DNA of 30,432 nucleotides from a virus: positions 1-30,432 of the IMG/VR virus record IMGVR_UViG_3300007735_000593, one strand, 5' to 3'. The notes beneath the pieces are model-generated. The model saw only the letters and a program-made list of their open reading frames with translations. It searched no databases and had not been told where the DNA came from. Shown here piece after piece: positions 345-4,333 of the stretch. The translations under genes and the position numbers were made by a program. Numbering within the stretch: position 1 is the first letter of the stretch; each line of letters begins with the position of its first letter.

Positions 345-621
345 TTTCTTTGGGTTTGTAAGGAGGTTTAGGTTTTCGGCAGCCAATTTTTTCGGAACGC
401 TTGTACTTCCGGGCATACCATTCGGAAGCGTCAATCGTGTACTTCTTGGGGTGCGAGTAGTTGTCGTACCCTTCTGCATAGGCGGCCTTCAAGTGGTTGA
501 TTTCCTCGCGCTGATGAAGTTTGTCAGCCTTCTTCATTACTACGGTCTTCAGCACCAAGCCGGGTTGGTTGGATAGCCAATCCATAAATAGCTCTAAGGG
601 GGTTGATTTGGGTTTAGGCAT
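295..621 (-). CDS. Hypothetical phage protein, 108 aa
   Basis: A basic protein with a central segment (residues 37 to 75) reading REEINHLKAAYAEGYDNYSH and then a DASEWYARKY motif. This layout, an AYxxGxxN helix followed by a Tyr-rich helix, is common in small phage proteins of unknown function. The C-terminus is very Lys/Arg-rich (CRKPKPPYKPKEN), which would suit nucleic-acid binding. The start overlaps the stop of the DnaA-like gene by 8 nt, and the end overlaps the SSB-like gene in another frame. A later ATG at 585 is possible. I assign no function. Confidence 0.6.
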   Translation of the reverse strand: MPKPKSTPLELFMDWLSNQPGLVLKTVVMKKADKLHQREEINHLKAAYAEGYDNYSHPKKYTIDASEWYARKYKRSEKIGCRKPKPPYKPKENVTTKPTKSLRKRDLH

Positions 622-1138
622 TGTTAATCATCTTCACTTTAATCATCGTACTCTGAATGCATCGGTCTTTCTTCTTACCGACAAGCGACTTGATTCTATC
701 CTGGAGACAGACATTGGCTTCGTCCGAATTGTCCCAAAAGCCATAGTATTCATCCTTCATATCATCGCATCGCAGGAGGACGCAGAACTTGGTCTTAATC
801 TTTGACTTGAACGCAGGGGCTTTGCCTTCAATGATGTTGCAGATGTTCTCCAAATCCTTGCGAGTTCCCCGGATGTTGTGGGTCGCTTCCTCTTCAATCA
901 ATCGGATGGAGTGGATGACCGTGCTATGGTCTTGGTTGAAGTAAACTCGCCCCAAAGACAATTTGCTTATCTTGGTGTACTTGCGGATGAGGAAGGTGCA
1001 TATCTGCCGGGCGTGGACGATGTTAGCCCTGCGGGTCTTCTTCTGCAACTCCCCTGGAGTGATGCCGAAGTAGGACGCAACCACCGAGATGATGTTCTCG
1101 GACATCTTGTTTTCAATCAAACCGACTTTCTGTTCCAT
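614..1138 (-). CDS. Stand-alone DnaA domain IV (DnaA-box binding) protein
   Basis: Residues 16 to 84 match the C-terminal DNA-binding domain of the initiator DnaA: an N-terminal helix (VASYFGITPGELQKKTRR), the ARQICTFLIRKYT helix, and the signature FNQDHSTVIHS at 68-78 (DnaA: GRDHTTVxHA), which contacts the DnaA box. No AAA+ ATPase domain is present. A further 90 residues of unknown fold follow, with CVLLRCDDMKDEYYGFWDN near 119-137. In the family this fold recognises DnaA boxes; here it may direct phage replication or compete with host DnaA, which is inference. The ATG at 1138 follows the TAG of the zinc-ribbon gene by 2 nt (TAGAAATG); an internal ATG at 1105 is an alternative. Confidence 0.85.
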   Translation of the reverse strand: MEQKVGLIENKMSENIISVVASYFGITPGELQKKTRRANIVHARQICTFLIRKYTKISKLSLGRVYFNQDHSTVIHSIRLIEEEATHNIRGTRKDLENICNIIEGKAPAFKSKIKTKFCVLLRCDDMKDEYYGFWDNSDEANVCLQDRIKSLVGKKKDRCIQSTMIKVKMINNA

Positions 1139-1140
1139 TT

Positions 1141-1287
1141 CTATTTCTTCTTCTTTTTATCCGTTTTCAGAACCAAAACAAGCCTGCCGCAGTAGGGGCA
1201 GAATGGGCCACCTTTGAGGTCAATAGTCCTTTGGTCTGCATCGTGGGCCACAAGGCCGTGATTCGGGCATTCTCCTGCGTATTTCAT
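1141..1287 (-). CDS. Small zinc-ribbon-like protein, 48 aa
   Basis: A short gene read directly from the sequence. The ATG at 1287 overlaps the methyltransferase stop as ATGA, and a TAG at 1141 lies 2 nt before the next start. The protein begins MKYAGECPNHGLVAHDADQR and later has FCPYCGRLVLVLKTDKKKKK. Cys7 and His10 with the CPYCG pair (Cys30, Cys33) can form a single zinc site, and the tail is poly-Lys. Tight coupling on both sides and the zinc ligands support a real protein. Such treble-clef or ribbon peptides usually bind nucleic acid or partner proteins; the role here is unknown. Confidence 0.75.
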   Translation of the reverse strand: MKYAGECPNHGLVAHDADQRTIDLKGGPFCPYCGRLVLVLKTDKKKKK

Positions 1288-2540
1288 AGGTCTTTCATTA
1301 ACAATTCAACATACTCAATCCTTTGCCCAATCCATCGCATTACCGGCACGGCCATTGAGTTACCGCAGGCTTTGTACCTCGGCCCATCGGGGCATTGGTC
1401 GGCAGGTTTGTTGCGATATGGAATTTTCGTCCAATCATCGGGAAAGCCCTGCAACCGTTCGCACTCTTTTGGAGTCAGCCTACGAATAGCCATTGTGTGC
1501 TGAACTGCGTGTGGCCCTTTGGCTACGAGCGATGACATCGTTTGTCCCGCCTCAATCCTTGGCTCGTATTGCGCATTTTGACCTTGATTGAATGCGGCAC
1601 GGTCAATGATGGTTGGCTCCAACACCGCTCCGTAATGGTTTACATCCGAAGCCGAAGAGCCAATCGTCTGGGATGTTTTTTCGTTGATGGTTTGGTTGAA
1701 GCAGTCCACGGCAATGGGTTGAGCGACAAACTCTCTTTCCCCGCCTTGTCGTGACCCTTGGTCTTTGTAGTAGCTCGCATCTATTGGGCCTGCAATCTTT
1801 TCCATCGTAATGGGTTGAGCGACTTGCTCAATAACCGTATTAAAGCCATCGGCCCTGCTATAGTCATCGCAACTTGTTTGCAAACAAGCCGCCACCTGGC
1901 TCTCTACATTTCCTGCGAAGCCTGTCGCTCCAACGCTTCCTTGAGCATCGGTGGCAGTTTCTTGCCTCTTCGCTCTGCTCGGTTTAATATCCCTTTGCAG
2001 GCTTTCGGACTCAAATAATACCGCTGCGGCAGGTCGCCAATCTCCAAGGTATCCGACAACAAAGACTCTTCTGCGTCTTTGTGCGACTCCGAAGTGTTGA
2101 GCGTCAAGAACTCGGTAGGCGAACCCATACCCGAGTTCGCCCAACGCCCCGAGGAAGGTTCCAAAATCTTTTCCTCCGTTACTTGACAAAACGCCTGGGA
2201 CATTTTCCCACAGTATCCACTTGGGACGGCGTTTATCAGCGATTGAAAGAAATGTAAGCATGAGGTTTCCTCTTGGGTCAGCAAGACCCTTGCGAAGTCC
2301 TGCAACGGAGAATGATTGGCACGGAGTTCCTCCGACCAAAAGGTCAATTGGTTGTTCATTGAATTGTTGGAATTGGTTAAGTTGAGTCATATCCCCCAAG
2401 TTGGGGACATCGGGGAAACGGTGCTTGAGGACTGCGCTTGGGAAATGTTCAATCTCGGAGAACCATTGCGGTTTCCATCCAAGGGAGTGCCAAGCAACGG
2501 ATGCGGCTTCAATGCCCGAACAAACGGAACCGTATCTCAT
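1284..2540 (-). CDS. DNA (cytosine-5) methyltransferase
   Basis: A 418-residue C5 methyltransferase that transfers a methyl group from SAM to cytosine in DNA. Visible motifs: I (GSVCSGIEAAS, 4-14, SAM binding), IV (GGTPCQSFSVAG, catalytic Cys74), VI (WENV, 111-114), VIII (QRRRRVFVVG, 154-163), then a variable target-recognition region, and motifs IX/X near the end (RLTPKECERLQGFP; GNSMAVPV). All catalytic parts are present, so it should be active. The start at 2540 is set by the ATGA overlap with the 50-aa gene upstream and by the conserved MRYGSVCSG beginning; the frame continues upstream to 2636 but without family similarity. No restriction enzyme is nearby, so protection of phage DNA from host restriction is the likely role. 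A second frame lies inside it (1904-2359). Confidence 0.95.
   Translation of the reverse strand: MRYGSVCSGIEAASVAWHSLGWKPQWFSEIEHFPSAVLKHRFPDVPNLGDMTQLNQFQQFNEQPIDLLVGGTPCQSFSVAGLRKGLADPRGNLMLTFLSIADKRRPKWILWENVPGVLSSNGGKDFGTFLGALGELGYGFAYRVLDAQHFGVAQRRRRVFVVGYLGDWRPAAAVLFESESLQRDIKPSRAKRQETATDAQGSVGATGFAGNVESQVAACLQTSCDDYSRADGFNTVIEQVAQPITMEKIAGPIDASYYKDQGSRQGGEREFVAQPIAVDCFNQTINEKTSQTIGSSASDVNHYGAVLEPTIIDRAAFNQGQNAQYEPRIEAGQTMSSLVAKGPHAVQHTMAIRRLTPKECERLQGFPDDWTKIPYRNKPADQCPDGPRYKACGNSMAVPVMRWIGQRIEYVELLMKDL
1904..2359 (-). CDS. Overlapping 151-codon frame inside the methyltransferase gene
   Basis: An open frame fully inside the methyltransferase gene, from an ATG at 2359 to a TAG at 1904, covering motifs IV to VIII in another phase. 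The product starts MNNQLTFWSEEL, has a Ser/Thr-rich middle (SSGRWANSGMGSPTEFLTL) and ends in a basic helix-rich tail (YYLSPKACKGILNRAERRGK). I recall similar proteins annotated in phages that carry this methyltransferase type, but could not check this. Part of the apparent conservation may simply reflect constraint on the main frame. The tail lies over the poorly constrained recognition linker, which makes it the better evidence. No function is known to me. Confidence 0.45.
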   Translation of the reverse strand: MNNQLTFWSEELRANHSPLQDFARVLLTQEETSCLHFFQSLINAVPSGYCGKMSQAFCQVTEEKILEPSSGRWANSGMGSPTEFLTLNTSESHKDAEESLLSDTLEIGDLPQRYYLSPKACKGILNRAERRGKKLPPMLKEALERQASQEM

Positions 2541-2740: not shown

Positions 2741-3056
2741 CCAACACCCGTTGGAATTCTTCCACGCTTCTAATGACCTCGTATCTGTACCCCGCCTCTT
2801 GAACGACCCCCTGCCACCATTTCTGCGATAGCGACTGCTTGCCTTTGGGTGTTTTAAATTCCAAGAACACCGCACCCTTCGGCGATAGGTAAGTCATGTC
2901 AGCAACCCCAGCGGTCAGCCCGATTCCCTTTAGGAAAAAACCGTTGGAACGGGAGCGGGGGTTGTTGAGGTTAAGGAATAGCAGACCCTGCTCGTTGGGT
3001 CGCATTATTGCGAACAACTTAACGCAGGCGGCTTGGAGGTTGTATTCGTCCATCAT
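2727..3056 (-). CDS. VRR-NUC family nuclease
   Basis: A 109-residue protein of the VRR-NUC group of PD-(D/E)XK nucleases, found in phages and in FAN1. It begins MMDEYNLQAACVKLFAIMRP; the catalytic core reads GLTAGVADMTYLSP (Asp of the motif) and then AVFLEFKTPKGKQSLSQKW (the E-x-K pair), followed by a Gln-Trp helix and a final beta/alpha unit (YRYEVIRSVEEFQRVL). Length is normal for stand-alone phage members. The family cuts structured or branched DNA; here it probably processes replication or recombination intermediates. The start at 3056 overlaps the helicase stop (ATGATG around TGA), indicating coupling. Confidence 0.9.
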   Translation of the reverse strand: MMDEYNLQAACVKLFAIMRPNEQGLLFLNLNNPRSRSNGFFLKGIGLTAGVADMTYLSPKGAVFLEFKTPKGKQSLSQKWWQGVVQEAGYRYEVIRSVEEFQRVLVECG

Positions 3057-4333
3057 AGGGAATGTGGTGGGTATTCGTTGGCTTTGGTGTAGGGAAGGTG
3101 GCATTGGACCTCTGCGATTCCAAGCGAGCCATTGCGGTTCTTGCGGACGATGACCTCCATGAGGTCCGATGGCTGACTCTTGTCGTGTTCGTAAGGGCGG
3201 TAAACAAAACCAATCTTGTCAGCGTCAAACTCCAGTTGCCCCGTTTCCCGAAGGTCGGACATGATGGGTCGATGGTCGCTGCGTCCTTCCGTTGCACGGG
3301 ATAGGGATGAAACCACAACCCCGAACACCTTCTGCCGCTTGCAGATGGCTTTGATGGTCTTGCTGATGTTGGTCATTTGCTCAATCTTGGGCTTGGCCTT
3401 GTCAATCTTGGTGGGTTCTACGAGTTGGATGTAGTCCAAGTAAAATCCACAAATCCCGTACTTGGTTTTCAGTTTGGCTATTTCCCCTTCAATGCGGTCC
3501 AAGTTGGCTTGATGCAGGTCCACGATGTAGAGCGGTTTGGACTTGAGCAGGTCCGCTTTTTGCCCCAAGTCCATGAAGTCCTTGGTGCTGATTCGCTCGG
3601 TCGGGTTGAGAAATGCCGCCCCGTCCATTGTAGCCAAGTTGGATAGCATCCGCTGGGTCAGTTGCTCGGCACTCATTTCAAGCGTGAAGAACACCACAGG
3701 GATGTCGGCCATGGCCTGGTTCATGGCTATCTGCAGGGCCAAGAGGGTCTTACCCATTGCAGGCCGTCCGCCAAGCAGAATGAACTCGGTGGGCTTAAAA
3801 CCCGTGAGCATTCGGTCCATCGGGCTGATGTAGGTCGGGAAGATGGAATCCTTGCGTCTACCTTCACGGACCTCGTTCATGTTTAGCAGGAACGCCTTAG
3901 CCAGTTCGTGAGCGGTGCTTTCCGAGGCATTGGTTTCAATGGCCTGCATGGACTGATAGCGGGCAAAGGCTTTGGGGATGTCCCTATCATGGGCAAGTTC
4001 ATCCATGATTCTCTGCTCTTCTCGCTGCTTCCACGCCTCGTTGAGGTCGGAGGCATAGACCTTCCAATCGGAGGTCAAGGTATTGCCGTCCAAGATGTCT
4101 ACGAAATCGGCTATCACATGGGACTGCCCATTGTCAATGAGGTATTTGTGAACGGCTACCAAGTCAACGGGTCGCTCCGCTCGGTGCAGGGCTTCAATCG
4201 CTCTGTAAACAAGAACATGGTTTCCTGTAAACAACCGTTCGGGGATTTGCAGGAGGAGGACCGCTCGGTTGATAAATTGGTCCATGAGGCATGAGAGCAG
4301 CCTGCGTTCAGCGGTAAGATGGTAGTGGTTCAT
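3053..4333 (-). CDS. dnaB: Replicative DNA helicase, DnaB-like
   Basis: A 426-residue replicative helicase that would unwind the phage fork as a hexamer. The N-terminal DnaB domain spans about 1-110 (AERRLLSCLMDQ; VYRAIEALHRAERPVDLVAV). The RecA-like domain carries Walker A GRPAMGKT (189-196), VVFFTLEMSAEQLTQRML (motif H1a), Walker B YLDYIQLV (298-305), a SSLSRATEGR segment and a late arginine-finger region (SDLRETGQLEFDAD; IVRKNRNG). Length is slightly below bacterial DnaB. Its start overlaps the replication organiser gene by 26 nt and its end overlaps the nuclease, so all three are probably made together. Confidence 0.96.
   Translation of the reverse strand: MNHYHLTAERRLLSCLMDQFINRAVLLLQIPERLFTGNHVLVYRAIEALHRAERPVDLVAVHKYLIDNGQSHVIADFVDILDGNTLTSDWKVYASDLNEAWKQREEQRIMDELAHDRDIPKAFARYQSMQAIETNASESTAHELAKAFLLNMNEVREGRRKDSIFPTYISPMDRMLTGFKPTEFILLGGRPAMGKTLLALQIAMNQAMADIPVVFFTLEMSAEQLTQRMLSNLATMDGAAFLNPTERISTKDFMDLGQKADLLKSKPLYIVDLHQANLDRIEGEIAKLKTKYGICGFYLDYIQLVEPTKIDKAKPKIEQMTNISKTIKAICKRQKVFGVVVSSLSRATEGRSDHRPIMSDLRETGQLEFDADKIGFVYRPYEHDKSQPSDLMEVIVRKNRNGSLGIAEVQCHLPYTKANEYPPHSL

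Follow-up and report, generated by a model that had tools for sequence, protein, structure and literature searches.

The window analysed here, the whole stretch of viral DNA of 30,432 nucleotides, carries on its minus strand at 1284..2540 a gene for a C5 cytosine methyltransferase (MTase). This identity is established by the match to PF00145 (E 4.7e-60, covering 2-322 of 324) and by the PC catalytic motif, contained in the PCQ motif IV at 2316..2324 (minus strand) and preserved in 266 of the 268 relatives that were aligned. Translation likely starts with MRYGSVCSG at 2540, and the open frame extends upstream to 2690. Motifs IX and X are in frame, and both RRLTPKECERLQGFPDDW and GNSMAVPV are present in the large protein. 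Upstream lies the gene of a replicative DnaB helicase (3053..4333, minus strand; PF03796, E 1.3e-59) and downstream, at 614..1138 (minus strand; PF08299, E 2.9e-21), a gene for a stand-alone protein made of the DnaA C-terminal DNA-binding domain. Judged by these neighbours, the MTase appears to sit in a phage replication module.

Inside the MTase gene, an open reading frame of 151 codons with an ATG start occupies 1904..2359 on the same minus strand, in the +1 frame of the enzyme; its 151-residue product includes KACKGILNRAERRGKK. It spans the PCQ motif, which thus falls within the overlap, and stops past motif VIII, in the recognition region. The earlier note had described such an ORF inside the MTase and a second phase open across motifs IV to VIII into the recognition region, and both statements proved correct. 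No Pfam or NCBIfam match was obtained for the nested protein, and it matches phrog_16143 with an E value of 8.7e-12. When the window alone is considered, a frame of this length stays open in 1.5% of synonymous-codon shuffles. The window sequence by itself makes a case for a gene that is only suggestive, and it is the relatives that decide.

A search of viral contigs, genomes, phages and plasmids yielded 310 matches to the domain of the alternative frame, from 313 loci. All 310 are +1-frame matches inside C5 MTases, 308 of them fully so and two cut by contig ends, and none is a free-standing gene. Since many of these loci had been found through the alternative-frame motif, an unbiased set of MTases was collected with the last 129 residues of the enzyme only, outside the overlap, to avoid selecting for the alternative frame. 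Among the MTases recruited in this way that included motifs IV-VIII, the +1 frame was open and matched the alternative profile in 71 of 71. This set gives the same result as the larger collection, which rules out recruitment bias. In 36 non-redundant relatives recruited by the C-terminus, the +1 frame contained 10 stops in 5,234 codons over alternative residues 1-147, as compared with 261 in the +2 frame, and in the flanks outside the overlap it contained around 3 stops per 100 codons. The stops among relatives by which the earlier note would have judged its own proposal are thus almost absent.

The pattern of substitution is inverted within the overlap. Near alternative residue 127, the divergence at MTase codon positions 1, 2 and 3 is 0.575, 0.277 and 0.155, while the values in control regions are about 0.35, 0.29 and 0.65, with the greatest variability at position 3. 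Within the overlap, MTase position 3, which corresponds to position 2 of the alternative codon, is conserved best, and variability is greatest at MTase position 1, the wobble position of the alternative frame. The reduced synonymous change that had been proposed as a check is therefore seen. The inversion runs the same way in the relatives recruited without use of the alternative frame and, less strongly, in a distant branch typified by Streptococcus phage MM1. Individual residues behave likewise: alternative Arg131 is encoded by all six arginine codons and retained in 133 of 134 sequences, with A, K, T, E, P, S or Q as the MTase residue there, and alternative Ile124 uses ATC, ATT and ATA, with D, N, H or Y in the enzyme. 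An RNA or DNA element is unlikely, because invariant residues of the alternative frame swap synonymous codons while the MTase residue changes.

Selection was further estimated by counting changes according to their effect in both frames. Over alternative residues 101-147 the dN/dS of the alternative frame is 0.13-0.26 and that of the MTase frame, here the relaxed one, is 0.35-0.69; counted in the same way, control regions yield 0.64-1.13. Over residues 1-100 the alternative-frame estimates are 0.34-0.35 (dSN/dSS) and 0.62-0.92 (dNN/dNS), and these higher values point to weaker selection on that part. The best-conserved section of the nested protein (alternative residues 100-147; 1919..2062, minus strand) is thus the one where the MTase frame is relaxed, and in the tail beyond motif VIII, whose conservation in both frames was another of the suggested checks, the pairwise identity is 0.53 in the alternative frame and 0.29 in the MTase frame. 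The median score against the alternative profile is 108 bits as observed and 15 bits after synonymous shuffling of the MTases.

Could the open frame exist without a second protein, produced by conservation of the MTase, by codon bias or by an RNA or DNA element? The fraction of shuffles of the window in which the frame stays open leaves some room for this. The phase inversion and the synonymous codon swapping at invariant alternative residues speak against it, as do an alternative dN/dS well below 1 and the absence of the frame from the other C5 MTases of the same genomes; a by-product of MTase conservation or codon bias is ruled out by the synonymous shuffles, the inversion and the codon swapping. 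We regard the chance that no second protein is encoded as next to nil. The comparisons leave hardly any doubt that 1904-2359 (minus strand) is a genuine and ancient overprinted gene; its translation is itself inferred, without protein or ribosome data. Overprinting on a conserved enzyme, as had been supposed, was strongly supported by every one of the proposed tests that could be run.

A Shine-Dalgarno match of at least 5 bases precedes the first alternative ATG in 29% of copies, as compared with 10% of random ATGs, and nearly all copies of the Clostridia type have GAGGT-N8-ATG or a sequence close to it. The window copy has no Shine-Dalgarno sequence, and the same is true of nearly all other genes of this phage. 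The near-total lack of such sequences before the minus-strand genes of the window suggests a Bacteroidota-like host that initiates without them. Ribosomal frameshifting from the MTase into the alternative frame, giving a truncated MTase with an alternative tail, would agree with the C-terminal end being the most conserved part. However, the nested frame has its own ATG, with Shine-Dalgarno enrichment in many branches; the clade of the window has stops just upstream of the start (157-codon open frames for 151-codon ORFs); and the N-terminal motif described below is found at residues 3-7 counted from that ATG. Frameshifting is therefore considered highly improbable.

The nested product is predicted to be small and mostly disordered. 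AlphaFold2 is confident only for a C-terminal two-helix hairpin (alternative residues 118-147, ACxGILxRAxxRGKxLPxxLxxAL; 1919..2008, minus strand), with helices at 118-131 and 137-147 and a pLDDT of 94-97 for this block, and predicts the N-terminal 100 residues to be disordered. The conserved C-terminal core would be a helical hairpin in most branches; copies of the MM1 branch end their core with the first helix and have no second one. Nothing useful was found for a similar fold in PDB structures, nor by profile in PDB sequences. A Pfam search across 118 members of the nested family gave PF00145, in one member, as its only match, and PADLOC gave no match for the nested protein.

The family is widespread. 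A tblastn search with the nested protein returned 130 phage and 530 plasmid records, mostly P1-like. Between distant relatives the alternative frame is better conserved than the MTase: dmt of phage P1 and the window share 57% identity over 67 residues in the alternative frame and 39% in the MTase, and for a Deinococcus plasmid the values are 62% over 40 residues and 32%. The MM1-type copies form a second large branch, which takes in as many as 216 records from phages and 58 from plasmids (counts that partly overlap those of the first branch), in Streptococcus, Lactococcus, Enterococcus, Listeria and Clostridioides; its archaeal members are Methanobacterium virus Drs3 and a Methanomethylovorans plasmid. 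In phage SpSL1 the nested frame lies inside the MTase and is 69% identical to that of MM1; the MTase of SpSL1 is active according to the methylome of its authors, with 102 of 113 sites methylated in the phage DNA (PMC6755750).

The nested frame is confined to some C5 MTases. In 20 genomes carrying the nested gene, 12 of 30 C5 MTase loci have the frame and 18 do not, so that the other C5 MTases of these genomes lack it. A tree was built with 83 MTases from those 20 genomes, 15 further genomes and the phage loci; on it the nested trait needs 3 changes, as compared with about 20 when shuffled. This tree is a quick one with long branches, and a single origin of the trait is not ruled out. The nested gene marks one MTase subfamily, which includes P1 Dmt and enzymes of mycobacteriophage, Clostridia, streptococcal and archaeal elements.

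The mention in the earlier note of similar proteins in other phages was borne out by phrog_16143 and by MM1 orf14. GenBank DQ113772 annotates orf13 and orf14 of MM1 as the alpha and beta subunits of a C5 methyltransferase and, as in the window, beta lies wholly within alpha in the +1 frame; the alternative frames match by tblastn with 37% identity over residues 10-125. The second half of the C-terminal hairpin, present in the window protein, is missing from MM1 orf14. On sequence similarity, the window ORF fulfils what is required of a member of the nested family of MM1 orf14 and phrog_16143, which is matched by 85 of the 118 nested proteins. The label of this phrog, DNA methyltransferase, describes the overlapping enzyme and not the function of the nested protein; phrog_16143 appears to be made of nested alternative-frame proteins, a naming error that is spreading in annotation.

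Several loci depart from the usual arrangement. In the mycobacteriophages Thibault (L345, 1266-3067) and Constella (L347, 1270-3069) the MTase is interrupted near motif VIII by an insert that bears an HNH gene. Thibault gp104 (81 residues, hypothetical) is annotated in the alternative frame; it was ruled out as a stand-alone copy, being inside the MTase split by the insert. In mycobacteriophage Dove (L344, 2194-3312) the MTase consists of two consecutive genes, motifs I-VIII then IX-X, and the nested frame is in the first. The P1-like phage 813R1 (L349, 1814-4073) has the alternative frame annotated as a hypothetical protein, and was excluded as evidence because several small indels of dmt in both frames and a split rdgC annotation indicate probable sequencing errors. 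At L153 (2053-2734) the N-terminus of an MTase runs into the alternative frame through one single-base shift, likely an assembly error.

A short peptide recurs at the start of the nested protein. The published consensus for binding to the bacterial sliding clamp is QL[S/D]LF, more generally QxxLF (PMC12309361; PMC9690074). The MM1 branch begins with QMTLF (MM1 itself), QMSLF or QMNLF, in the form MTSQQYQM[TSN]LF; the nested protein of Dove has QLDLF; some Clostridia-type and Deinococcus copies have QLSLF, QMNLF, QVSLF or QPLLF; and Pseudomonas zjk6 has QLTLL. In the clade of the window the peptides are QLSMF, QMSIF and QLTFW, the last being that of the window (alternative residues 4-8; 2336..2350, minus strand), a weak form that departs from QxxLF at positions 4-5. 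Examples of the N-terminal peptides are MTSQQYQMTLFEE, MTSDQLDLFPS and MNNQLTFWSEE. Thus the strict QL[S/D]LF or QxxLF occurs in MM1-type, mycobacteriophage and some Clostridia copies, and the N-terminus that bears QLTFW in the window is predicted to be disordered.

In the larger branch to which the window belongs, 62 of 134 sequences have a clamp-like peptide, as compared with 1.6 in shuffles. QxxLF itself occurs 7 times, always at residues 3-7, and not once in about 17,000 further positions. Among the MM1-type copies, 11 of 20 non-redundant sequences have Q..[LI]F, as compared with 0.66 in shuffles. These counts depend in part on the idea that they test, since the motif first came to notice in the very sequences on which it was then tested; the cleanest check is the MM1 branch, which was fetched later, though the QMTLF of MM1 was already known. 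The peptides are encoded over non-equivalent stretches of the MTase, PIDLLVGG in the window, RSAGFVP in Dove and the SDDTIR region in MM1. Because alike peptides recur in the alternative frame over several different MTase sequences, we read them as a functional clamp motif. In P1 and in most copies of the Clostridia type no such motif can be recognised; no clear PCNA-type motif was found in the archaeal copies, Drs3 having none and Methanomethylovorans QLNLF. A short motif of a strength that varies between branches is weak evidence of binding to DnaN, which is inferred from sequence alone. As it stands, the motif points to a partner of the replication clamp rather than to the small anti-host or regulatory protein that the earlier note had imagined.

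A clamp-like motif is also what one would expect if the nested protein bound the host clamp on its own account, slowing or redirecting host replication or helping that of the phage, with no action on the MTase and only hitch-hiking on its gene. Small clamp binders that stop replication do exist, for instance SocB (PMC9690074). However, an independent gene should sometimes escape the overlap, and none of the 310 matches is free-standing; the nested gene is, moreover, tied to one MTase subfamily. We consider such an effector unlikely.

The same strict linkage to the MTase would suit a protein that serves the enzyme as an obligate subunit, chaperone or inhibitor and has no role at the clamp, its N-terminal peptide being used otherwise. 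The alpha and beta names given to the MM1 pair agree with this. M.EcoHK31I, an m5C MTase (YGGCCR), resembles the window in having a second small polypeptide, its beta subunit, which is encoded in a different frame of the gene for alpha. It is a known two-polypeptide m5C MTase, and its small subunit carries motif IX (PMC3404938). In the window, by contrast, it is the large protein that contains motifs IX and X, and the nested protein is devoid of MTase motifs, so that the M.EcoHK31I type is ruled out by motif content and nothing catalytic is missing that a subunit would have to supply. A subunit without a clamp role also leaves unexplained the recurrence of QxxLF at residues 3-7 in non-equivalent contexts. 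It remains conceivable, if rather doubtful.

We tentatively favour, at somewhat less than even confidence, a clamp-docking accessory subunit that ties phage DNA methylation to replication. The nested protein would be the accessory (beta) subunit of its enclosing MTase, made from the same mRNA; its C-terminal part would hold the MTase and its N-terminal peptide would dock on DnaN, the clamp of the host; newly made phage DNA would then be methylated on leaving the fork, much in the way that DNMT1 uses its PCNA motif. The sequences themselves establish the gene and its conservation, the strict tie to one MTase subfamily and the recurrence of the N-terminal motif. Translation, clamp binding, MTase binding and action coupled to the fork are all inferred, and contact between the nested protein and the MTase is inferred solely from their strict linkage, no contact having been shown. 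Replication neighbours give supporting context to the clamp-docking reading: DnaB and the DnaA domain in the window, and DnaC/DnaD or DnaI near the related loci of SpSL1, which has DnaC and DnaD, and CHPC1175. Against an accessory subunit, the C-terminal part is not uniform, the MM1 branch being without the second helix of the hairpin. That one mobile m5C MTase subfamily of phages, plasmids and archaeal elements has a near-universal nested gene of the clamp-docking type, tying methylation to the fork, is a possibility that we put forward with still more reserve.

Among known systems, the dcm-vsr pair of E. coli also joins a C5 MTase gene to an overlapping partner gene, that of a repair endonuclease. 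The overlap there is short and terminal, unlike the window, and no protein is fully nested; the two were compared by arrangement and not by sequence. DNMT1 is a C5 MTase brought to new DNA by the replication clamp through a PCNA-binding motif (PMC9690074); that motif is within the enzyme itself, whereas here it would sit on a separate nested protein, and the two share no homology. Within the library searched, no paper or functional study on the nested gene was found. As an annotation, the arrangement is already on record in MM1; judged against the same library, what appears new is how widely it is distributed, the proof that it is coding, and the clamp-like motif.

Outside small viruses, few fully nested overlapping genes on the same strand are backed by decisive evolutionary evidence. 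The one described here is ancient and hardly ever annotated; hundreds of database records contain it, among them that of the textbook phage P1 (in dmt). Earlier mutations and constructs in such MTase genes have probably changed two proteins together. If the proposed function is true, the system would be a bacterial counterpart of the link between DNMT1 and PCNA, realised through a separate subunit whose gene is overprinted, and the clamp link would offer a concrete and easily tested mechanism by which phages methylate their DNA fast enough to outrun restriction.
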